Assembly: GCF_000203815.1 (NCBI RefSeq)
Contig: NW_004457624.1
Span: 3,038,001 to 3,102,000, forward strand
Direction: 5' to 3'
DNA from: Cavenderia fasciculata
Lineage: Eukaryota; Evosea; Eumycetozoa; Acytosteliales; Cavenderiaceae
Length of the DNA stretch: 64,000 nucleotides
Part shown: in pieces, positions 16,561 to 58,468 of the stretch
How positions within the stretch are numbered: position 1 is the stretch's first letter
How the letters are laid out: each line of letters begins with the position of its first letter
Made by a program: the position numbers and the translations under genes
The notes under the pieces: model-generated
What the model was told of the DNA's origin: nothing
The model's database searches: none
What the model saw: only the letters and a program-made list of their open reading frames with translations

Positions 16561-17416
16561 TTAATCTTGTTTGATTTCAACCAAAGTATTACAATAAGAG
16601 TATCGAGAAAAAAGGACAAATAGATATCTAAACCAAACCAACTGACTTGCATGTTGTTTCATAGCCTCAAAATTCTTTCCAAATAGTTTGTATGCCGTAT
16701 ACAATCGATCGTATGATGAGAATATCCATTTGGAGAAAAATACATCTCCAATACCAATATACTTTCTAATGATATTAACAGATTCCAATTCATATCCTTT
16801 AACCTTTGTATTATTCTTTAAATATAATCTATATAATTTGAAATATATTTAATTAATTTCTATTCAATTATCTAACTTTTCTTCTTACTTACTTTACACC
16901 ATTTGATACAGATATATGATTTGGATGACCAGAGACACCACCATGATCAAAGGTTAATATTTGAGTGATACCCCATTGATCTACGTATTTTTGGATATAT
17001 TTTGATATGACGGTTACATCCCAATCCTTGTCCATTCCATCGGGTAGATTGGTATCGTTGACGACAGCCACATGGTCACGTGCCACACCATAGCATCTGC
17101 AGCTATTGACCAACTCTTTTTCTCTAATCTTTCCCAATCCATCGGCATTACCATTGGACAGACACACTACGTGCACTATAGATTCTTCTCCTTGTATACT
17201 TTGATAGTATTCTAGAGTAGGACTAAAGAACATACATTCATCATCTGGATGTGCTATTGCTAATAGTATACGTGTTGTTGGTGTAGTTGTCATATCTCCT
17301 TGCTCCTTTTCTTGATTGATTGTATTACCACCACTATCTTCTTGATTGATAAATGTAATGAATAAATAGGCCAATAATAGAATAAATAGTGAAGAGCACA
17401 CCAATACTACTTTCAT
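16561..17416 (-). CDS. pigL: N-acetylglucosaminyl-phosphatidylinositol de-N-acetylase (PIG-L)
   Basis: Exons 17416-16893 and 16828-16561 join in phase (GTAAGT...TATATAG) to give 263 residues, close to the family's usual 250-270. An N-terminal membrane anchor (residues ~2-24, VVLVCSSLFILLLAYLF) precedes the lumen/cytosol-facing LmbE-type zinc deacetylase fold. Diagnostic motifs are AHPDDE (metal ligands and the catalytic Asp) and GVSGHPNH (third ligand His). The enzyme removes acetate from GlcNAc-PI, the second step of GPI-anchor synthesis at the ER. It diverges from the kinase/pseudophosphatase gene across a 386-bp shared promoter region. Confidence 0.93.
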
Positions 17417-17802
17417 TCATATGTATGAATGAATGATCATCAACCGATTTAAATTGAAATCAATGAAGGGTACCCCCTCCACAAACTAAATAAATTAAAA
17501 AAAAAAACAAACAAATTCTCAAAGCCCGCTCAGAGCAAAAGATAAAGATATCTTTTATTAAACCTCTAATCTTAATCTACCCACCCATCATTACAACAAC
17601 AACAACAAAAATATATCGACGCGTCGACAAACTGCAATAATGAATAACAACACAACAACTAGTAGTATAATATAGAAAGACACACATTATAAATATAATC
17701 AAACAAACCAACCAACCAACTTTGTAAATAATAATAATAATAATAATAATCAGAAAAGAGGAGAGAGAGATAGAGAGAGAAACAATCAACGTTTAGCGGG
17801 GG
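17417..17802. other. Divergent promoter region between PIG-L and the kinase-pseudophosphatase gene
   Basis: 386 bp, AT-rich. It contains an (AAT)n run near 17729-17752, then an (AG)n purine tract ending 20 bp before the downstream ATG. A GTCGACGCGTCGAC-like inverted element (ATCGACGCGTCGAC) sits at about 17614-17627. No coding signal seen. Confidence 0.5.
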
Positions 17803-20800
17803 ATGATGGATTTTAGTCGAGAAAGAAAGATTAGATCTGTCACTGCCTACAAACAATCTAAATTTGATGTAGAAGAGTTGCTGGTATCGTTGGACAAGTT
17901 GTTGAATGAAGCACCACCTGCAGCTACCAGCACCGCCGCTGCAGCTTTGACTAGTCGTGGAAAGAGCGGACTCAGTCTGCAGCAGTGCTGTCAAAAGTTT
18001 ACGGCAGAGGGTTTCAACATCCTACAGAAACTAAGGGAAAAGACAAAGACATTTGATACATCAGACGTATCGTACTTTATCTTGCGAGGAGGTATCACTA
18101 TCCTCATCAAGTGTCTGTGTTTTTGTGGTCGTACCACACTCTCCAATGAAATAGCACTCGAGATATCGCAATACCTTATCGACAATAACCATCAAACGGC
18201 AAGACTGTTTTGCAAGCAGATCATCAACCATCTCTGTGACGACATTGAGTGTGTCGGTGTCTCTGAAACACTCCCAAATTTAATTTCACTCTATCCTATT
18301 AGATCTGTATGTACTATACATACGTGACTCTCTTATTACTTAATACTATGACTAACCATGATGATTTGATTATTATTTGTCTTTAGATATTTATTGAAGA
18401 TTTATGTATACCAAAATTGATTGAAATCTATTATAAGGGATCGATTAAACTTGCAAATGGATTGATCAATAACCAACAACCTGCGATGATACAAATTGAC
18501 AAGGTGATTGACAAACCATTAGAAACACCCAAAGAAGGATGGGCTAATTTATTGGTCAATTCAAAGGTTAAAAGTAACGCTGTCACTTGTCTCAGTAACA
18601 GTTCATTAAATCGAAATAATAATAATAATAATAATAATAACGCCAGCGAGCAAATGAAACGATCGAATCTAAGAGACAGTGGTGTATTGTCACCATTGGA
18701 AACTGCTAGTAATGGAAGCAGCCCAAATGAATCACCAACCATATCAAGTGCCAACAGTAGTTTTAGCAACCTAAAGAATCTTTTACCCAACCTCAACAAT
18801 CTCAATATCAACAACAGCCATGCATCACTACCAACCAGTCCTCCACAAGTTCCATCACTCAAACTATCGGCATTGAAACCAATCATTCCAAAATTAAATC
18901 TACCCATTCGAATTGAAAGCTCTGCAAAAATGACTAGAAGTAGTAGAAGAAGAGAAGACAACAACTCTTCAACTCGTAGTACCACTGGTGAAGTTAAATT
19001 ATTAGATTCAAGCTCAACAAAAGAATTAAGTGATATTGCTACAAAATTGGGTGAAACTTGTAAGTCAAATAGAAAATAAGAAAAAGAAAGAGATTACTAA
19101 ATATTTATTTATTTATCTATTTAGTTGTAACTGCTGATTTAACAGCTTTAATATCATATAAACAAGCAGTTGATGCACATATTAGTCAAACCAATTCAAT
19201 TAAGAGGGCATCATATGCACCAAAGAAATTAGTGTATGATCAATTAATCGGACAAACTCAACATTTACTTTCACAAAACAATAGTATCGATATGCAACAA
19301 TTCCGTTCATCAAATATTTATAAAGTTAGATCAAGTATATTAAAAACTTTAATTGCTGCTACCTCTCATAATCTTTGGTTACTTCAAGTATGTTTGAAAA
19401 ACAAAACAAAAAACAAAACAAAAAAAGAACTTTGGTTAATTAATTAATATTTCTTTTATAGTATGTAAATAATCCAATGAATTTAATATATTCAGAAGTA
19501 TTATTAATGTATAAAGGAATGATACCATATGATTTTGATTATTTAAATTTGGTATTTCAATTTGCCTACAATTGGGCAGACTATGTAGAATATATTCATA
19601 GAATAAGATGGAACGATGTTACAAAGGGAATGACACCTGAAAGAAAAGGTGCCTATAGAAAGAAATTAGATGTATTATTATGGAGATTTAATTATAATAT
19701 TTTAAATATTTTTGAAACAAATGTATGTAAAACAAAAAACAACAAATAATAATAACATAATAATAATATTTGTTTATTTTAATTTTTTAGGTGATTGATG
19801 ATTTAGAACATCAATTACATATGTTGGCAGATTATATGGAACATTGTCCAACAAGAATTATGCCATCACAAGTAGTAGATGTTTGTATTGAAGTTTTATT
19901 AAAGATTAAACATTATTGGTTCAAAGGAAGAATTTCACACGATAGATACAAAGACATACACGTCATTCATTACTTGTTGTGTGTCTTTGATGAAATTATC
20001 ACTCAAAACATGCATCCGCCATTGAACGATCTATTGTTGGCCATTTTCATTGAACGTGAAGACACTTTTAATTTCATCAAACACTATACACAGTTGCTGA
20101 CCAGTAGCGAATGGTTGGAAAAGGAATTCGAACGTGACAAGACAAAGGGTGGAAGTATCAAATTGATAGAGTATAGATGCCGTGTATTTAAACATCACTC
20201 GGTTTGTGTAGATATGATCAAACGATCCATTCAAGTAGACTCTAGAGGAGAAACTGAAAAAACTGAACCAGACCAAGTCCACATCTCTGAACTGGTTCAA
20301 AAGATGGAATATCTCTTGCTTCCTGGTAATGGTGTCATCCTTCCATTCCTTCAATCTGGTTCATTCTATCAAAACTATCTCGTCAAGAAACAAATGATGG
20401 AATTCCTTTGTACCATTTTCTATTTTAAAAAGAATCCTTATACAAAGAAAAAAATTTATATTGATTCTTATATTAGGTATGAATGAAAAAAATAGAAAAG
20501 TTTAAAAAAAGAAATCAAAAACTAATAATAATTTAATTTATTTTTTTTATTTCTTTTTTAGTTATTTTTATATTAGTTTTATTAAATTATATAATAATTA
20601 TACAGTTGATCCACAAACTTTAACATTGTGTAAATTATTTTTAAATATTTTAATTGCATTTTCTATAAAGTATGTAAAAAACGAAAAAAGAAAAAGAAAC
20701 AAATAATATTAATCTTACTAATTTGGTTTTTAGCAAAAATGACAAGATATCATTAAAATTCTATCAATTGAGAACAATGGATTTTATGGTTAGAGAAGTC

Positions 20801-23800
20801 AATTTGGAATATGAAGTTAAACAAAATCGTAATCAATTGGCAGAATCATTCTTTATTAAAAAGGAAGGTAGTAATAACTCACCTTTACTCTCTAATAATA
20901 CATCCAATAATATGATTATAAAACCACTCGTTTCATTGACACCAAATGATAGTAGTAGTACTTCTTCTACTACCTCTTCTGAAATCAAGAAACCAGGATT
21001 ACCATTATTAAAGCTACCACCAAAAGTACCAAATCTTACCAACCTTCCATCAAAAGATGGTAGCAATACAACATCAACACCTACAACTATTTCACCACCA
21101 AAGATACCTACATTAAATATACCACCCAAAGATGGAAACAATGCACAATCGGGAACAACTCCTCCAAAGATACCAACATTGAATATACCACCCAAAGATG
21201 GGTCATCGCCTACTCTTAGTATCACACCACCAAAGATTCCATCGTTGAATATTCCACCAAAAGTTCCCTCTTTGCCAAACCTTCCAACCAAGGATGGCAC
21301 CAACTCACCAATTTCAATGGGTATACCAAAGATACCGGCATTAAACATCCCACCAAAGGATTTACCGGGTGGTAGCTCAGGAACGACCCCTCCTAAAATA
21401 CCAACACTCAATATTCCACCCAAGACAGCTGATGGTGCACCATCAATCAAACCTGTCCTCCCACTGTTGGCACTTCCACCTCGAACCACAAAGAGTGAGG
21501 TACCATCATTACCATCAGAACAAAACCCAGCACCAGGAGGCTTTCTTTCTGCCATTGAACAAAAGATTGATTTACACGATCCAAAATTCCAATTGGTATT
21601 TGGTGATGCTGCAAGTAGCAATACACTTGGCGGTGGAGGTGCTGTTGACCAACCGGAACCAACAGACAAGGAAATTAAAAATGAAAATCAAAGATATCAA
21701 TTGGAAAGAGCCAATAGAAAATTGTATCACGACAAGGAATTACATATTTCTATTTTACAATTAATTTTTAGTTTATTATTAAATCCAAAGTATGAAGAAA
21801 AAAGAAACAAAAAGATAGATAAAAAAAGTATTAATATATTTTTATTTTTATTTTTCTATTTAGTCAAACACTTGAACATTATTATTCAGATCAATATCCA
21901 ATTTTAGCTAAAAAGTTAAATGTACCATTTATTTTACAATCACATATTAATCATACTCAAAACGAACACATTATACCAGAATTGTGTGAAAAGACATTGG
22001 AAATGGGACCAAATCATTATAGAATCCTAAAGTTGTTGTTTAATCGATTATTCCATGCATCACCATTCAAAGATCTTAAAAGAGTGGCCAAGGGTGCATT
22101 TGGTACAGTTTACAAAGGATATGTAGCTCATGACGAAGGTTTGGAGGTTGCAGTCAAACTCATGCCAGTTCCAAAGAGTATTCATGATCGTTGCGTACTC
22201 CATGACATTTTTACAGAGATTCTCATTATGGATACCTTTAGAAGTGATCATCGTGCCTGTCATATGTTTGACTATGGTGTAGATGGTGAAAACTATTGGA
22301 TTGCCATGAAATCCTATAAATGCTCTCTAAAGGAATGGAGATTAAAACAAACTGGAACTTTCCTTCAAAATCTACCATTATATTTGAATATTTATATGAA
22401 TGTTTTATTAACTGTTCAATTTTTAGCTGAAAATAGTAAGAGAAAAAAACAACCCAAAATAGATCTATTTTATACTAATTTTATCTCTCTTTTAGAAATC
22501 AATCATTTTGATATTAAATGTGATAATTTTTTGGTTCATCCAATTAAAAAAGGAACATTGGAAGAAGATTTTTGGAATCAACCAACAAGTGATCCAAATT
22601 TTATTGTTTGTTTAGCTGGTAACTATTTATAAATAATTTATCAATAACTGGTTTTAATCATTTTTATTATTTTATTAGATTGGGGAGAAGCAAAAGTTTA
22701 TATTCATGATATTGATGGATACACAACAAGAAATAGAGGAACAGAATTTATAAAGAGTCCAGAAATGTTGATGATTGCATTTGCTTCACAAAAGACTAGA
22801 GAGAATTTCGATAGAAGAAAAAAGGTTGGAAGTAACACAACGTCGGATGTATGGTCGTTGGGATGTCTCTTTTACGAGTTGTTGACTGGTGACTTTTTAT
22901 TCTATGATGACGATTGGGTAAAGTTCTTTATCCGTGTCACTCAACCCGGTCAAGAACTTATTACACCTGACAAGAAGGCAAAGATTAGCAACATGTCTGC
23001 AATTTGTGACTTTTTGGATTTCATTTTCGTCCGTGACCCATTCTATCGTCCAACATTACGCGATCTATTGACTAAATTTGCAGTAGCCAAGCCACTCATA
23101 TTGGCCGAGTTGGGACAAATCAAGATGAAGCTCAGTCAAGACGATCTGCTAAATATCGAACAACCAAAACAATACTTTAGCGGTGGTGATGGTACAAGAT
23201 ACAAGGGACCTAGCAAGATCAGTGGACACTATACTCCAGGTCGTTTCTTCCCTCATAGCTACAACCTAAACAATCCAACTGGATTGCTCTCCAACAAAAA
23301 TGCAAAGGCATCACAACAAACACTCTCTGATGACTCTTTGGCAAATGAACAACCAGAATTCCCCGAACACAAATATCTCATGGAATATCCTTCAAAAATC
23401 ACCTCTTTTATGTATATATCTTCTTATCAACCTTCCATGAATAGAAATCTTTTAAAAAATAATTATCGTATGTACAAACAAAATAATAGAAAAAAAGAAT
23501 TTATTTATTTATAATTTATTTATTTTTATTTTTTTATAGATATAACTCATATAATTAATTGTACTGGTTCACCAAATGCATTTCCTGATCATTTTGAATA
23601 TTTACATTTACAATTGCACGATGATGAGTCACAAGATATCCTACATTCATTGACTTCGGCATTTGATTTCATTAGAGATGCCATTGTACATCAAGGAAGA
23701 GTATTGATCGTGTCTGATAAGGGAATTAGTAGAAGTGCGGCATTGGCTATTGGTTATTTCATGGATTCTCGATCGATCAGCTATTTTGAAGCTTTTATTC

Positions 23801-24408
23801 TCATCCGTGACTGTCGTTACATTATCAACCCTAATCTTGGTTTTGTAGAGCAACTCTGTCGCTGGGGTAAACAACGTCGTACACAAAAGGGTCTCGCAGA
23901 ATGGGGTGGAGGTATTGAAGCCCAGTTTGCCAATACCAACAACACCACCACTCAGTTCCAATGTCTGTGTGGAGCATGTGTCTTTACGCTGTTGGCACCG
24001 TTTGACTCTACCAAATTCAAGAACCCTCGTAATTGCAACTGCTCCAAAGACCAGAGTCAAGACTGTCCAAATCTTTTGGGTTGCTCTTCTTTCCTACACG
24101 ACATGAAGAAGTTGCACAATTATAGTAGTTCGTCCAATCATGTTATTTGGGGCTACACCAACATTACCAATGTAGTTGGTGATTATAAACGTTCTTCTGT
24201 TGAAATTCAATATCCAAAATCACCTCCAACAAACAGCATTAATAATGGTTCGATCAACAGAAAAGACTGGACACTCTATAAATGTAAAACATGCCACTTT
24301 TTGACATACGCCATCAACAATAATCAAAATAACAATAATCAATTTACAGACAAGACCGTTGCAATCGTAACCAATATCAGAAGTGATAGATTAACTGTTA
24401 AAAGATAA
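17803..24408 (+). CDS. Protein kinase fused to a DUSP-like pseudophosphatase with a Cys-rich tail, 1967 aa
   Basis: Eleven exons in phase: 17803-18306, 18387-19059, 19125-19387, 19462-19722, 19791-20476, 20562-20669, 20734-21789, 21864-22435, 22496-22618, 22679-23467, 23540-24408. Residues 1-~890 are helical with Ser/Asn-rich inserts and no family I recognise. About 890-1130 is a Pro-rich repeat (units like PKIPTLNIPPKDG). The kinase domain (~1254-1590) has AKGAFGTVYKG (first Gly of the loop is Ala), VAVK (Lys1282), HFDIKCDN (Asp1380; HRD Arg is Phe), DWG (Asp1416) and SPE: probably active, but non-RD. The phosphatase-like domain (~1680-1790) has VSDKGISRS, so Ser1737 replaces the catalytic Cys, as in the pseudophosphatase MK-STYX. 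The tail has CLCGAC, CNC and KCKTC clusters, possibly zinc-binding. One gene is supported by unbroken phase through all ten introns. Confidence 0.88.
21002..21480 (+). repeat. Coding tandem repeat, PKIPTLNIPP(KDG) units
   Basis: Within exon 7 of the kinase-pseudophosphatase gene, about eight imperfect units of the form PPKIPTLNIPPKDG alternate with Gly/Ser/Thr spacers. Each unit has two PxxP-like cores separated by an aliphatic patch, suggesting a repeated docking linear motif (for example for SH3-like or MAPK-type partners; inference). Confidence 0.8.
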
Positions 24409-24428: not shown

Positions 24429-24698
24429 TTATAAAGCTGTATATATATACCGAACCATTTTTGTTCTCCTTTGGTTTGAACCAAGACGATTCCAGTGGGG
24501 GTGCCCCCAAGCACCTCCTTTCAGTAGTTGCTCACCTCCTCTGGAATCTTCCATTATATCTGCTGACAAATTCAACCAAGAAGCCACACCTTTTGAGAAA
24601 TAATGAGATGATTTTAAATATCGGTACTTCTCATTGAAAGAATTGTTTGATCTTTCAACTGTTGTGTCTCTTTTCAAGTTTGATTTTGGCATGATCAA
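24429..24698 (-). CDS. Unrecognised 89-codon open frame beside retroelement debris
   Basis: An ATG-started frame with coding-like composition (MPKSNLKRDTTVERSNNSFN...; later SRGGEQLLKGGAWGHPHWN). It has no recognisable domain. Its 5' end abuts the plus-strand RNase H-like relic, so it may be part of the same dead element or an unrelated fragment. No start context or intron evidence supports a live gene. Confidence 0.25.
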   Translation of the reverse strand: MIMPKSNLKRDTTVERSNNSFNEKYRYLKSSHYFSKGVASWLNLSADIMEDSRGGEQLLKGGAWGHPHWNRLGSNQRRTKMVRYIYTAL

Positions 24699-24911
24699 GA
24701 TGAAGTGCTTAAAAAACCAGTATGGTATGAGTCAAGGAAATTAACTAAAGAAGAAGTTAATTATGACCGTGAATACCTAGCAGTTATCAACATGCTGAAG
24801 AAATATGAACATTTACTATTGGACATGGGAGAGTTCACAGTGTACACGGACCATGAAGCGTGTACACACTCCCACAATCAGAAACAACTGTCAATAAGGT
24901 TACCGTCATAA
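24684..24911 (+). mobile_element. Relic of an LTR retrotransposon (RT/RNase H region)
   Basis: The frame open from 24684 reads through KKPVWYESRKLTKEEVNYDRE, then YLAVINMLKKYEHLL and FTVYTDHEA. This is the signature of the reverse-transcriptase-proximal RNase H domain of Ty3/gypsy-type polyproteins: the SRKLT, EKELLAV-like and TDHxA motifs. The frame then dissolves. Further on, 24938-25007 reads NDIGRVRDIVKDNMIDAQRN, which resembles the region after the integrase core in such elements. No LTRs or flanking duplications were found, so this is a truncated, dead copy. Confidence 0.7.
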
Positions 24912-32406: not shown

Positions 32407-34233
32407 ATGAAATATATTTTAGTAACAGGAGGAGTTTTATCGGGTATTGGTAAAGGTATCATTGCTAGTAGTACTGCAATGATTCTAAAGTCGATGGGTT
32501 TGCGTGTCACATCGATCAAGATTGACCCATACCTTAATATCGATGCCGGTACCATGTCACCATTCGAACACGGAGAGGTGTTTGTGTTGAATGATGGTGG
32601 AGAGGCTGACTTGGATCTCGGTAACTACGAACGTTTCCTCAACGTCTCGTTGAACCGTGACAACAACATTACAACCGGCAAGATCTACAACACCGTCATT
32701 GAAAAGGAGCGTAAGGGTTTGTTCCTCGGCAAGACCGTCCAAGTCGTGCCACACATTTCCGAAGAGATCCAGCAATGGGTTGAACGTGTCGCTCACGTGC
32801 CAGTCGACGGCGAAGAGGGCTATCCAGACGTCTGCGTCATCGAGCTCGGTGGCACTGTCGGTGATATCGAGTCGATGCCCTTTATCGAGGCCATGCGTCA
32901 GTTCCAGTTCCGTGTGGGCCCAGAAAACTTTTGTTTGATGCATGTCTCGCTCGTGCCAGTGATTGGCGTCGTCGGCGAGCAAAAGACCAAGCCTTCACAA
33001 CAGTCGGTTCGCGAGCTCCGTGCCCTTGGTTTGTCGCCAGACTTTGTCATGTGTCGTAGCGGCCAGCCACTCACCTCGGACACCCGTCGCAAGATCTCAC
33101 TCTTTTGCCATGTTGCTCCAGACAATGTCATTGGCGTGCACGACGTCTCCAACATCTACCGTGTCCCCCTCTTGTTGTACCAACAAAACATTGCCAACCT
33201 CATCGTCAAGCGTCTCCATCTCACCCCCAAGGTCGACATTCATATCCACGGCCAAGAGAATGGTCAACAACAACAACAACAACAAGATAGCGGCGCCGAC
33301 GTTGACAAGGTAACTGACGCCTTTGCCGTGCCATACTGGCTCCAATCCTGGAAGGAGATGGCCGACCGTATGGACCGTGTCGGTAACGAGCAGGGATACG
33401 GGCCCATACGTATCGCCATGGTCGGCAAGTACACCGGTCTCACCGACAGCTATTTGTCCGTCATCAAGGCACTCGAGCATGCTTCCATGCACCTCGACCG
33501 TAAGATGGTCATCGACTGGGTTGAAGCCACCGATCTCGAGCCCATCCCCACCGGCACCGCCGCCACCAGCTCGGTCGAGCCATCTGGTCTCGCCTCTGCC
33601 ACTCGTTCAGTCGAGTCGTACGACCGCGCCTGGACAATCCTCAACCAATGCCACGGTGTCCTTGTGCCAGGTGGTTTCGGCGACCGTGGTATTGAAGGTA
33701 TGATCCTCGCTGCCAACTATGCCCGTGTCAACAACAAGCCATACCTCGGTATCTGTCTCGGTATGCAAGTTGCCGTCATGGAGTTTGCCCGTAACGTCAT
33801 GGGATGGGCCAACGCCACCTCTGAAGAGTTTACCAATGTCGGAGGCGGCAAGAACGTCGTCGTCTTTATGCCAGAGGTTTCCAAGACCCATATGGGTGCC
33901 ACCATGCGTCTCGGCTTGCGTCCAACCATCATCAACGACCCAAATAGCAAGATTGCCAAGTTGTACGGCGTCACCAAGGTCGGTGAGGCCGTTGAGGAGC
34001 GTCATTGTCATCGTTAGGAAGTCAACCCAGACGTCGTCGAAGAGATTGACGCCAAGGGTTTGCACTTTGTCGGCAAGGACGACCAAAATGTCAGAATGGA
34101 AATTGTCGAACTCAAGGATCACGTATACTTTGTCGGTTGCCAATTCCATCCAGAGTTCAAGTCTAGACCTATCAAACCATTTCCACCATTTGTTGGTTTA
34201 ATTCCAAGCTTCATGGGATTTTATGGCTTCTAA
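32407..34233 (+). CDS. CTP synthase, with an in-frame TAG before the last 71 codons
   Basis: A single exon encoding the ATP/glutamine-dependent conversion of UTP to CTP. The synthase domain (1-~275; [33 protein letters not shown]) is followed by a Gln-rich linker and the class I glutamine amidotransferase domain with nucleophile Cys450 in GICLGMQ. A TAG at 34015-34017 stops the frame after EERHCHR, where relatives read ERHRHRYEVNP. The same frame continues with [20 protein letters not shown] and QFHPEF to a TAA at 34231, and this segment holds catalytic His581 and Glu583. A truncated enzyme could not use glutamine. The codon before also departs from consensus (Cys for Arg). Codon use is C-ending and biased, typical of high expression. 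Sequence error, recoding or real inactivation are possible. Confidence 0.9.
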
Positions 34234-51006: not shown

Positions 51007-53702
51007 TTATTTTGGGATATTACCACCAACCAAACCATTGGCAGTATTGAAGAGATTGATTGGTGAAGAACCATCGGTAATCATGAAACTCTTGAGACCG
51101 AGACCAGAGAGGAGCTTGGCTTGCATTTCTGGGCCAGCTTGGGCGATGGATTTGATAGTGTCGGCACCGATGGATCCAACAATGTCTCTAAACTTCTTGG
51201 CATCGATTTCAGTGAGATCCTTGGCACGTTGGATTTCGAGTTCATCCAACTTCTTCTTGTATTGGAGTTCGGCCTCACGCTTTTGCTTGATCAAGAGGAG
51301 TTCAGATTCGGAACGGATCTTGGTGGCTTGAGCCTTGAGCTTGGCTTGGTTAACGTTAGCCTCGGCAGTGATGGCTTGGGCTTCAGCTTGGGCTTGAGCT
51401 TCTGCGGTTGCTTGACCGGTGGATTCGACGGCAGCAGATTGGGCTTGCAACTCGAGCAACTCCTTTTTGGCAAGTTCGGCAGCAGCTTCATCATTGATCT
51501 TTTGACGTTCGAGACGACCACGGGCACCTTGTTCGAGCTTTTCGGCTTCGTGACGGGCAGCAGCTTCTTGAGACTTGGTGGTGATTTCGATGGCCAATTG
51601 GACAGACTTTTGGAGAGAGTCACGGGTACGTTGGTCGACTGGTTCGACAGATTGAATATCAATGTTGGTGACGACGAGACCGTTGGAATTGAAAACAAAG
51701 TTTTCCTTTGGCTTGCCAGTTTCATCAAAACCAAAGACAGAGTGACGGATAATTTCAGCAGAACGCTTGTGGAAGTCGTCAAATGGAACGGCAGCGACGG
51801 CACCACGGACACGCGAGGCGATGGCCTTGCAAGAGTCACCAACAAAATCTGGGACTTGGAAGATCTTTTGGGCATCCTCCTTTTTGGTCTTGTCAATGAC
51901 AAATTGCCAGTTGTAGGACAACTTCAACGAGAGCTTGGCGTGATCAGAGGTTTCGACAATGACAACGTCGGTCATGAAATCTGGACCGAGGTAGAGAGCA
52001 ATAGACTTGATGACGTGTGGACGCTTTGGCTTTTCACCAGAGAGCGAGAGGACGGTAAAGTGTTCGTCTGGACCGAGCATGACCAACTCTGGACCGAAAA
52101 CAACACGAGCCTTCTTTTCCTTGTAATCGTAGATTTGGACGGCAGAGTTGTGTGGGGCACGGTAAGTAACAACACGGGTCTTGTCACGGCTGCCAAAGTC
52201 GGGGTCGTTGGTTTCCTTGGCAAAGACTTCTTCGACGGTCTTGGGCAACTCCTTTTCCCAGAGTTCTTCGTTTGGACGAAGCATATAGGTACGGGCAGAG
52301 AGCGAGGCAACCTTACCAGTCTTGATATCACGGACATAGATACCTTCGTTGTCGTCCAATGGGATCGAGGTACGCTTCTCGGCAACTTCGACTTGGACGG
52401 GTGGGATGAAATCGGTTGGACCATAGATCATCCAACGGTCACCGGCCAAATGGGTTTCGGCGCCATCAGTAAAGGTTTCCTTGGCACGGAGGAGGAGGGC
52501 TTCTTGGTCGTTGAGAATGTAGACTGGGTTGATACGGTTGCCTTCGAGCGACTCTCCTGGACGGAGGAAAAAGGAGACTTCACCCTTGCGCAACTCCTTT
52601 TGACCGAGTTGTGGCTTGCCGTTGGCACCGACTGGGTCGAGGACGACACAGTATTGACGCTTGGAGAGGGTGGTGATGGCAATCTCAGAGACGACGGTTT
52701 CATAGACATCGGCAATATGGGTTTCACGGTCGGACGAGGTGACGAGCCATTCTTCACCGGCCTTTCTTTGGACTGGGGTCTTGCCAGACTCGTCGGTGAA
52801 CGACTTGATGGCCTTGAGGTGGAGAGCCTTCTTGTCGGTCAAAATGTATGCGTTGACAGTCTCGACAATCTTTTCGTCGACGCCTGGCAAGTAGGAACCG
52901 CTTTGACGGACCAACCACTCTTCACCGGCCTTTCTGGCAGTGCCGAGTCTGTCGATACAGGCCTTGTTGGCACGGAGCTTGAGGGCTTGGTTTGGACCGA
53001 TAATGTTGGCCTTGATCTCTTCCTCGACACGGACTTCAATGCGTGGCAAGTAGGTGCCTGGACCTTCGTATAACCATTCGTCACCGGCAACGTGGGTGAC
53101 CTTGCCTTCGGTAAAGTCACGGAGTGCTCTGAGACGAAGAGCACGGAGTGGTGGAACGACTTGGAGGGCAGTGACCTTGCCAACCAACTTTTCACCTGGG
53201 TATAATGGGAATGGGTCTTGAGCAACACGGATCTCTTCATCACCGTGTCTCAACTTGACTTGGTTAAACTCATCCAAAGCCAATGATCCGTCGGCCTTGC
53301 GAACTACTGGGTTACCAATGGTGCAGTAGTTACGGAGTGGAATCATGATCATGGGATCTGGACCGGCAACTACCTTTTCGTGGTCTTGACGTGTAAAGGT
53401 GTTTGGACCAATCTCTACTCTGGTTACATTGGTATTATTATCCAAGACATGAATGTATTGGTATGGTTTGATACGTATCACTAAAATATATAATAGAGAG
53501 AAGAGAAATAAAAGAATGAATAAGTTAGAATAGAGAACTTAAGAAAAATCGTAAAGACTGTAAGACATCAAGTCTAACAACAAATATTGCGTTCAGTTTT
53601 GTGGTCGATCATTTGATAGATCGTTCACTACTTTTGCTCTATTTGTTGTTTCTATTGATGTTGAGTCTTGTTTGATAACAAACCTGAGTTGGTGGCATCC
53701 AT
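51007..53702 (-). CDS. mvp: Major vault protein (paralogue 1), 830 aa
   Basis: Exon 1 (53702-53684) encodes MDATNS. An unusual GTTTGT donor opens a 203-bp intron, and exon 2 (53480-51007) carries the rest. The N-terminal vault repeats are clear: [13 protein letters not shown] near 45, then [51 protein letters not shown]. The shoulder domain (~530-660; [17 protein letters not shown]) and the long cap helix (~660-800; Ala/Glu/Gln-rich) follow, with a Gly/Asn C-terminus. MVP forms the shell of cytoplasmic vault particles. Strong codon bias implies high expression and generates a 650-codon antisense shadow frame. It is transcribed divergently from paralogue 2. Confidence 0.96.
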
Positions 53703-55773: not shown

Positions 55774-58468
55774 ATGTCACAACCATCGACCGTAATCAGA
55801 ATCAAGCCCCACCAATATATTCATGTATGTTGTTTGTTGACTTTAATCACATGATCATCAATCGATCAAATCAACCATCGACTGTTCTTTGTGTGAATTA
55901 ATCACGATAATCATGTGTCAATCAATATATACTCAGTAATCTAACCATTTCATTATTTTATTTACTCTATTTATATTTTTGTAGGTATTAGATAATAATA
56001 CAAATGTTGCAAGAGTCGAGATTGGTCCACAAACCTTTACTCGTCTCGATCACGAAAAGGTAGTTTCAGCATCACCATTGTCAATGATTATGATCCCACC
56101 AAGAAACTATTGTATTATTGAAAACCCAGTTATTAGAGGAGCTGATGGAAAGCTCATTCTCGATCAATTCGAACAACCAAAGCTCAGACACGGTGACACT
56201 GAGATTCGTTTTGCTCAAGATCCATTTGCATTATACCCAGGTGAAGTCCTCTTGGCCCCACCAGTCCCACTCCAAGTTGTACACGCCAACAGTGCCCTCC
56301 GTCTCAAGTGTCTTCGTGACTTTGTCGAGGTCACTGCCGACAAGAAGGAGCTCCACCACGTCGCCGGTGACGAGTGGCTCTTTGAAGGCCCAGGCACCTA
56401 CTACCCCAAGGTCGAAGTCCAAGTTGTCGAAGTCGCCAAATCCACCATCATCAAGGAGAACCAAGCCCTCCGTCTCAGAGCCCGTCTCCAAACCACCGAT
56501 CGTAAGGGTGTTGTCCGTCAACCAGGAGAAGAATGGTTGGTCCGTGACAGCGGTGCCTACTTGCCAGGTGTCTATGAAGAGATTGTTGGCTTTGTTGCCG
56601 CTCTTGTCTTGACCGACCGTATTGCCTACCAATTGCTTGCTCTCCGTTCCTTCAAGGATCAATTTGGCAAGTCCCGTCGTGCCGGTGAAGAGTGGATCAT
56701 CACTCAAAAGGACAGCGACACTTACATCCCATCGGTCGATGAAAAGGTAGTTCGTGACTTGAAGGCCATCACCCTCACCAACCGTCAATACTGTATCGTC
56801 GCCGACCCAATCGACCCAACCTCTGGCAAGAACCAACTCGGCCACAAGCAACTCCGCAAGGGTGACCGCACATTCTTCCTCTTGCCAGGCGAAACCTTGG
56901 TAGGTGGTGTCCAAAACGTCAACGTCCTCGCCGAAGACGAAGCCCTCTTGCTCTCGGCCAAGGAAATGTTTGTCGAAAAGACAGAAAAGGAGACTGTTAC
57001 CCGTAAGCCAGGAGACAGCTGGATGATCTATGGTCCAACCGACTATATCCCACCCATTGAAATCGAAGTCGTCGAGAAGCGTAAGCGTATCCCATTGGAC
57101 GTCAACGAAGGTATCTATGTCCGTGACACCAAGACTGGCAAGGTCCGTTCCGTCATTGGCGCCTCGTACATGTTGTCTGCCAACGAAGAGAGATGGCCAA
57201 AGCCCCTCACCCCAATCGTCGACGAGCTCCTCTCCAAGTCGGCCACCCGTGACGCCAACGAAGAGTCCAACGATGTTGAACGTGATCCAACTGAAGTCGT
57301 CACTTACCGTGTCCCACACAATGCCGCCGTCCAAATCTATGACTACCGTAAAAAGGAGGCTCGTGTCATTTTCGGTCCAGAGTTGGTCATGCTCGCTCCA
57401 GATGAAGAGTTTACCGTCCTCTCCCTCTCTGGTAAGATTCCAAAGCGTCCAAACCATATTCGTTCCCTCGCCCTCTTCCTCGGTCCAGATTTCATGACTG
57501 ATCTCATCACTGTCGAAACTGCCGATCATGCTCGTCTCTCCTTGAAGCTCTCCTACAACTGGCATTTCAAGATCGATCCAAAGAATACTAGCAAGTTGTT
57601 TGCCTCATCCGATTTCACTGGTGATTTGTGCAAGGCTACTGGTTCTTTGGTTCGTGCTGCCGTCGCTGCCTCCACTTTTGACAACTTCCACAAGCACTCT
57701 TCGGAAATCATCCACGAAGCTGTCTTTGGCAAGACTGAAGATGGTAGCCCATGCGACCAATTGGTTTTCGAAACCAACGGTCTCGTCATTACCAACATTG
57801 ATGTTCAATCTGTAGAACCAGTTGATCAACGTACCTTGGACTCTCTCCAAAAGTCTGTCCAATTGGCCATTGAAATTACCACAAAGTCACAAGAACAATC
57901 TGCCCGTCAAGATGCCGAACGTCTTGAACAAATTGCTCGTGGTGAATTGGAACGTCAAAAGATTGTTGATGAAGCCCATGCCGAACGTGCTCGTTCCAAC
58001 CTCGTCAAGCTCCAAGCTCAATCTGCCTCTGTCGAATCCACCGGTCAAGCTATCGCTGAAGCCCGTGCTCGTGCTGAAGCCTCACTCATTGCCATCGACG
58101 CTGAAGTCAAGCAAGCCAAGCTCGAATGTGAAGCCTCTGAAATTGAAGCCGCCGCCGAACTCGAACAAACCATTGCCCTCCACGAATCTGAAATCGACCA
58201 CATCCAATCACTCAATGAACTCGAGGTCAACAAGGCCAAGGAACTCGCTGGCATTGAAGTCTCCAAGTTTTCCAACCAAGTCGAAGCCCTCGGTACCGAA
58301 ACCATCAAATCCATTGCCCAAGCTGGCCCAGAAATGCAAGCCAAGCTCCTCGGCGGTCTCGGTCTCAAGAGTTTCATGATTACCGACGGTAAATCTCCAA
58401 TCAATCTCCTCAATACCGCTAATGGTTTAATCGGTAATACTTCATCTGGTTCATTTGGTGATTTCTAA
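55774..58468 (+). CDS. mvp: Major vault protein (paralogue 2), 844 aa
   Basis: Exon 1 (55774-55824) encodes 17 residues. A 160-bp intron (GTATGT...TTTGTAG) precedes exon 2 (55985-58468). Same architecture as paralogue 1: vault repeats ([65 protein letters not shown]), shoulder ([17 protein letters not shown]) and cap helix ([16 protein letters not shown]...), ending SSGSFGDF. D. discoideum also has more than one MVP, which co-assemble. The intron is phase 0 after codon 17, whereas paralogue 1 has a phase 1 intron after codon 6. The two proteins are clearly diverged although their promoters are near-identical. Confidence 0.96.

Follow-up and report, generated by a model that had tools for sequence, protein, structure and literature searches.

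A Cavenderia fasciculata gene appears to fuse a protein kinase, probably functional, with a phosphatase-like domain that lacks its catalytic cysteine

The window analysed here is a stretch of 64,000 nucleotides of Cavenderia fasciculata (assembly GCF_000203815.1, contig NW_004457624.1, positions 3,038,001 to 3,102,000), which was compared with the whole genome, 31.0 Mb in 21 contigs from one assembly only. Its forward strand carries a gene with the following features, numbered by position in the window.

17803-24408, + strand: whole gene, from the first in-frame ATG to the stop codon; 11 exons, 1967 amino acids (aa)
21095-21424, + strand: proline-rich region of exon 7 (aa 953-1062), in which the repeat P(P)KIPxLNIPPK occurs five times
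22069-23073, + strand: protein kinase domain, Pfam PF00069 (aa 1253-1547; exons 8-10, with introns 22436-22495 and 22619-22678)
22156-22158, + strand: Lys1282 of VAVK
22510-22512, + strand: Asp1380, the catalytic Asp of HFD
22618-22680, + strand: Asp1416, the metal-binding Asp of DWG, its codon split by intron 22619-22678
22679-23467, + strand: exon 10, encoding in the same frame the kinase C-lobe (DWG onward), the linker and aa 1661-1678, with which the DSPc domain opens (18 residues)
23413-23871, + strand: DSPc (dual-specificity phosphatase) domain, Pfam PF00782 (aa 1661-1789; intron 23468-23539 inside)
23620-23622, + strand: Asp1706, the likely general-acid position, assigned by eye from the motif
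23707-23736, + strand: phosphate loop IVSDKGISRS, with Val1736 in place of His, Ser1737 in place of Cys, and Arg1743 kept
23962-24294, + strand: Cys-rich tail with nine Cys (C1820, C1822, C1825, C1844, C1846, C1854, C1860, C1927 and C1930)

The open frame starts at 17797, directly after a stop codon, and reaches its first ATG at 17803. All ten introns run from GT to AG, measure 60-85 bases each and have a pooled GC content of 0.164, compared with 0.351 for the exons. AT-rich DNA, short introns of this kind and runs rich in Asn are features that indicate a dictyostelid. When 16 alternative combinations of splice sites were tried, one left whole codons and a single terminal stop. Because the kinase C-lobe and the beginning of the DSPc domain are encoded without interruption in exon 10, we assign kinase and phosphatase to one polypeptide, in which about 113 residues separate the two domains (aa 1547 to 1661) and the rest of the DSPc domain follows beyond one GTATGT...TTATAG intron (23468-23539). 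Two separate genes would therefore have to split within a domain, and an erroneous joining of adjacent kinase and DUSP genes is scarcely credible when exon 10 runs stop-free from one domain into the other and the remainder lies across a single intron.

Searched against Pfam at E <= 1, the whole protein yields two kinds of domain, protein kinase and DSPc. The kinase match (PF00069, E 2.6e-24, 86.5 bits against a cut-off of 31.7) is far above chance, and PF07714 matches inside the same region (aa 1253-1547). Together with Lys1282, Asp1380 and Asp1416, this match places the domain among the eukaryotic protein kinases. Under the rule applied to the Dictyostelium kinome, by which retention of the Lys and the two Asp predicts activity (PMC1420674, in its accessible passages), the kinase is probably active. 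The prediction has to be qualified because three of its motifs are unusual: HFD stands for HRD, DWG for DFG, and in the nucleotide loop Ala1259 stands where the first Gly is expected. Among solved structures ULK3 is a loose relative (6fdy, E 2.1e-10), and relatives in the protein's own genome are distant, at 26-40% identity, the next best having 28% (E 1.3e-8). A genome-wide search for the kinase family scored 123 of 404 candidates and did not list the window gene, and we draw no count from it.

The DSPc match (PF00782, E 1.3e-23, 83.7 bits against a cut-off of 33.5) likewise lies far above chance. Above the cut-off, DSPc scores in this genome range from 35.8 to 117.9 bits; since 83.7 bits is strong for a domain without the Cys, the phosphatase fold looks maintained. 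Measured against the canonical HCx5R, both the His and the nucleophilic Cys are replaced, by Val1736 (GTG) and Ser1737 (TCT, 23713-23715), whereas Arg1743 (AGA, 23731-23733) and the GxSRS frame are kept. A DSPc fold above cut-off with its catalytic Cys replaced makes this a STYX-type pseudophosphatase domain. Retention of the Arg and the Asp together with a Ser at the nucleophile position is also the design of laboratory substrate-trapping mutants. When solved structures are ranked by their match to the phosphatase domain, DUSP19 comes first (3s4e, E 1.1e-19), followed by DUSP4, DUSP1 and STYX (2r0b, E 2.4e-16). Ser likewise occupies the nucleophile position in three of the four aligned DUSP19 chains and in the DUSP4 chain, where we take it to be engineered.

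The two domains are accompanied by regions of less defined character. The linker and the N-terminal region are rich in Ser and Thr, and no Pfam family scores above its cut-off in aa 1-200, aa 393-877 or the tail. Upstream of the kinase a weak match to PAZ (E 0.0011) was set aside, its 19.4 bits falling short of the cut-off of 28.8, as were two weaker Pfam matches (E 0.081 and 0.12), both below their cut-offs. Neither Pfam nor solved structures (best E 0.24) support a zinc-binding fold in the tail.

The domain plan thus agrees with the first-pass annotation of this DNA, which had proposed a single protein with repeated Pro motifs, a kinase keeping its Lys, catalytic Asp and metal-binding Asp, a DUSP-like domain with Cys replaced by Ser at 1737 and Arg kept at 1743, and a terminal Cys cluster. 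Its residue numbers for the phosphatase loop are exact, and the profile search of both domains that it had suggested as a check recovers each of them. To its description are added the loss of the preceding His and the motif deviations of the kinase.

Among the DSPc matches of the genome the replacement of the catalytic Cys stands alone. All 26 candidates from a DSPc search were scored, and 21 of them matched at E <= 0.001, a set in which some members look like other classes of Cys phosphatase that share the profile, and from which highly divergent or intron-split pseudophosphatases could be missing. The loop could be read in every one of the 21. Twenty keep the catalytic Cys, the window gene being the sole exception; HCx5R is present in 19 and SCx5R in one. 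The latter (L045, G000:C13:313950-314350) has a DSPc score of 32.9 bits, below the cut-off, and its loop, SCKGGKGRTG, looks PTEN-like by eye. The closest other DUSP, at 39% identity (C7:1487414-1487806), has an intact IHCHQGISRS loop in an open frame of 655 aa, and no kinase was found beside it. By eye, the long open frames with which it lies (L038, 4494-8124, + strand) resemble gelsolin. Of the 20 other DSPc matches, 13 were scanned with a rough kinase profile (E <= 1e-3), and none had a kinase adjoining, the scan covering only 1.5 kb on each side at 8 of the 13 loci. Genome searches with the tail (aa 1817-1967) and with aa 393-877 returned only the protein itself. Because these searches, and those with the kinase and the DUSP domain, gave no second copy, they supply no paralogue by which conservation of the Ser could be gauged. 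A scan of viral contigs for the DUSP domain returned five pattern matches, and no relative was among them.

The first-pass annotation had likened the Ser replacement to that of the animal pseudophosphatase MK-STYX (STYXL1), which like STYX is an inactive DUSP fold (PMC3586659, PMC8907265, PMC8622459). The likeness holds, and it reaches one residue further than claimed, because MK-STYX reads IFSTQGISRS (PMC3586659, as excerpted) where the window protein reads IVSDKGISRS: the same two residues are lost, giving FSx5R there and VSx5R here, and the Arg is kept in both. By the same excerpted account, restoring His and Cys turns MK-STYX into an active phosphatase (PMC3586659). The likeness is one of the loop, and the overall sequence is not especially similar to MK-STYX, because DUSP19 and STYX both outscore the STYXL1 structure (9fqr chain Xs, E 2.1e-7). 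In STYX itself the Cys is described as replaced by Gly, and not by Ser as here. MK-STYX is also described with a CH2/rhodanese region, whereas the Pfam search at E <= 1 found only kinase families and DSPc in the window protein. To our knowledge, MK-STYX has no kinase domain.

Proteins that combine both activities, or their remnants, are nevertheless in print, and the first-pass claim that no system of this design had been described does not stand. In the accessible passages of PMC2175518, fusions of kinase and dual-specificity phosphatase (DSP) domains in kinetoplastids are named kinatases and described as having leucine-rich repeats (LRRs) and a pair of pseudokinase domains together with a DSP that is active; kinase and phosphatase architectures are mentioned there for Giardia, Tetrahymena and D. 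discoideum as well, and a Leishmania kinatase has been studied (PMC13210143, seen as an excerpt). Like the window protein, the kinatases hold kinase and DSP domains in one chain. They differ in that both of their kinase domains are judged inactive, whereas the single one here keeps Lys, Asp and Asp and is probably active; in that their DSP is active with its catalytic Cys, whereas Ser1737 occupies that position here; and in their LRRs, a family that the Pfam search at E <= 1 did not find in the window protein. For these three reasons we file the protein by its architecture, and not as a kinatase.

Also comparable are three Entamoeba histolytica proteins (EAL46608, EAL47388 and EAL49131), described in the accessible part of PMC3827238 as a kinase with a non-functional phosphatase domain, one of the three being without LRRs; the likeness to the window protein is by description only. 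A D. discoideum 'novel kinase' likewise carries a dual-specificity phosphatase domain (PMC1420674, in the passages available). It shares both domains and comes from another dictyostelid, compared here by description only, and is possibly the orthologue of the window gene. The open-licence PMC literature, represented largely by listings and passages, yielded no paper describing a Cys-less DUSP on a dictyostelid kinase, and a search of it for Dictyostelium, DSPc and Pkinase together found nothing; nor do the accessible passages of PMC9138534 and PMC9485057 contain anything on a kinase-pseudophosphatase fusion. As proteins joining a kinase to a DSP and to a pseudophosphatase have both been published, the design is already described, and the window gene is an interesting new example rather than a new kind of system.

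On the basis of the sequence features, we propose that the kinase-attached STYX-type domain docks or shields phosphoproteins, a reading whose chances we judge to be evenly balanced. With Arg and loop intact and without the Cys nucleophile, the domain would be unable to form a phosphoenzyme and would instead bind phosphorylated or MAP-kinase-like partners without hydrolysing them. Phosphoproteins could thereby be docked beside the kinase or shielded from active DUSPs, and the Pro repeats and the Cys-rich tail might supply further contacts. The model is supported by the strong DSPc match, by the replacement of both His and Cys as in MK-STYX, and by the Cys kept in 20 of the 21 DSPc matches of the genome. 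There is also a precedent in STYX, which is described as a competitor of MKP-2 for ERK and as an anchor of ERK (PMC8622459, as excerpted).

Phosphate binding is not obligatory for such a domain, and in a rather unlikely alternative it would be a phosphate-independent protein-binding surface that holds a fixed partner or dimerises. STYX is reported, in the passages available, to bind the F-box protein FBXW7, and MK-STYX inhibits stress granules independently of phosphorylation of G3BP-1 at Ser149 (PMC3586659, again as excerpted). A plain surface, however, would have no need of the phosphate-pocket parts that are kept here (Arg1743, GxSRS), nor of Asp1706.

More doubtful is an intramolecular switch, in which the pseudophosphatase would turn the kinase on or off by binding a phosphosite elsewhere in the same chain, whether in the kinase itself, the linker or the N-terminal region. 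The spacing of the two domains, about 113 residues in one chain, and the abundance of Ser and Thr in the linker and N-terminal region would suit such a switch, but the structure model, an AlphaFold2 prediction made without an alignment, covers exon 11 only and has a mean pLDDT of 32.6. We are similarly sceptical of an extension of the docking model to a natural substrate trap, common to dictyostelids and a mirror image of the kinatases, in which the Ser1737 domain would capture a primed protein, protect it from DUSPs and present it to the kinase.

A recent loss or a sequencing error, with an active phosphatase as the real or original form of the domain, is very unlikely. There is one assembly only, and the Ser codon TCT is a single base away from the Cys codon TGT; yet the neighbouring His is replaced too, so that passing from CAT or CAC followed by TGT to GTG TCT changes four of six bases. 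An error is improbable because it would require all four to be wrong in an otherwise sound domain (83.7 bits), albeit in that one assembly.

Known pseudophosphatases, as far as the excerpted literature describes them, come mostly from animals and carry no kinase. Here an inactive DUSP would sit on a probably live kinase, in genetically tractable amoebae, which would permit a direct test of a role as a reader of phosphoproteins. Relative to the kinetoplastid kinatases, whose kinases are judged dead and whose phosphatase is active, the dead and live halves are swapped. If these proteins go back to a common origin, the contrast suggests that the joined architecture is retained while activity disappears from one half or the other. 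The novelty of the gene is limited by the earlier reports of both the fusion and the pseudophosphatase form.

The surroundings of the gene hold several other features, characterized by eye. Just upstream on the opposite strand (16889-17416, -) a frame with AHPDDE resembles deacetylases of the PIG-L type, and downstream (24680-24860, +) a short stretch looks like the degraded remains of a retroelement. Further along, a 536-aa open frame (32407-34017, +) resembles the start of CTP synthase. Two similar long open frames, at 51007-53481 (-) and 56078-58468 (+), look like major vault protein; as they lie on opposite strands, they are possibly an inverted duplicate pair.
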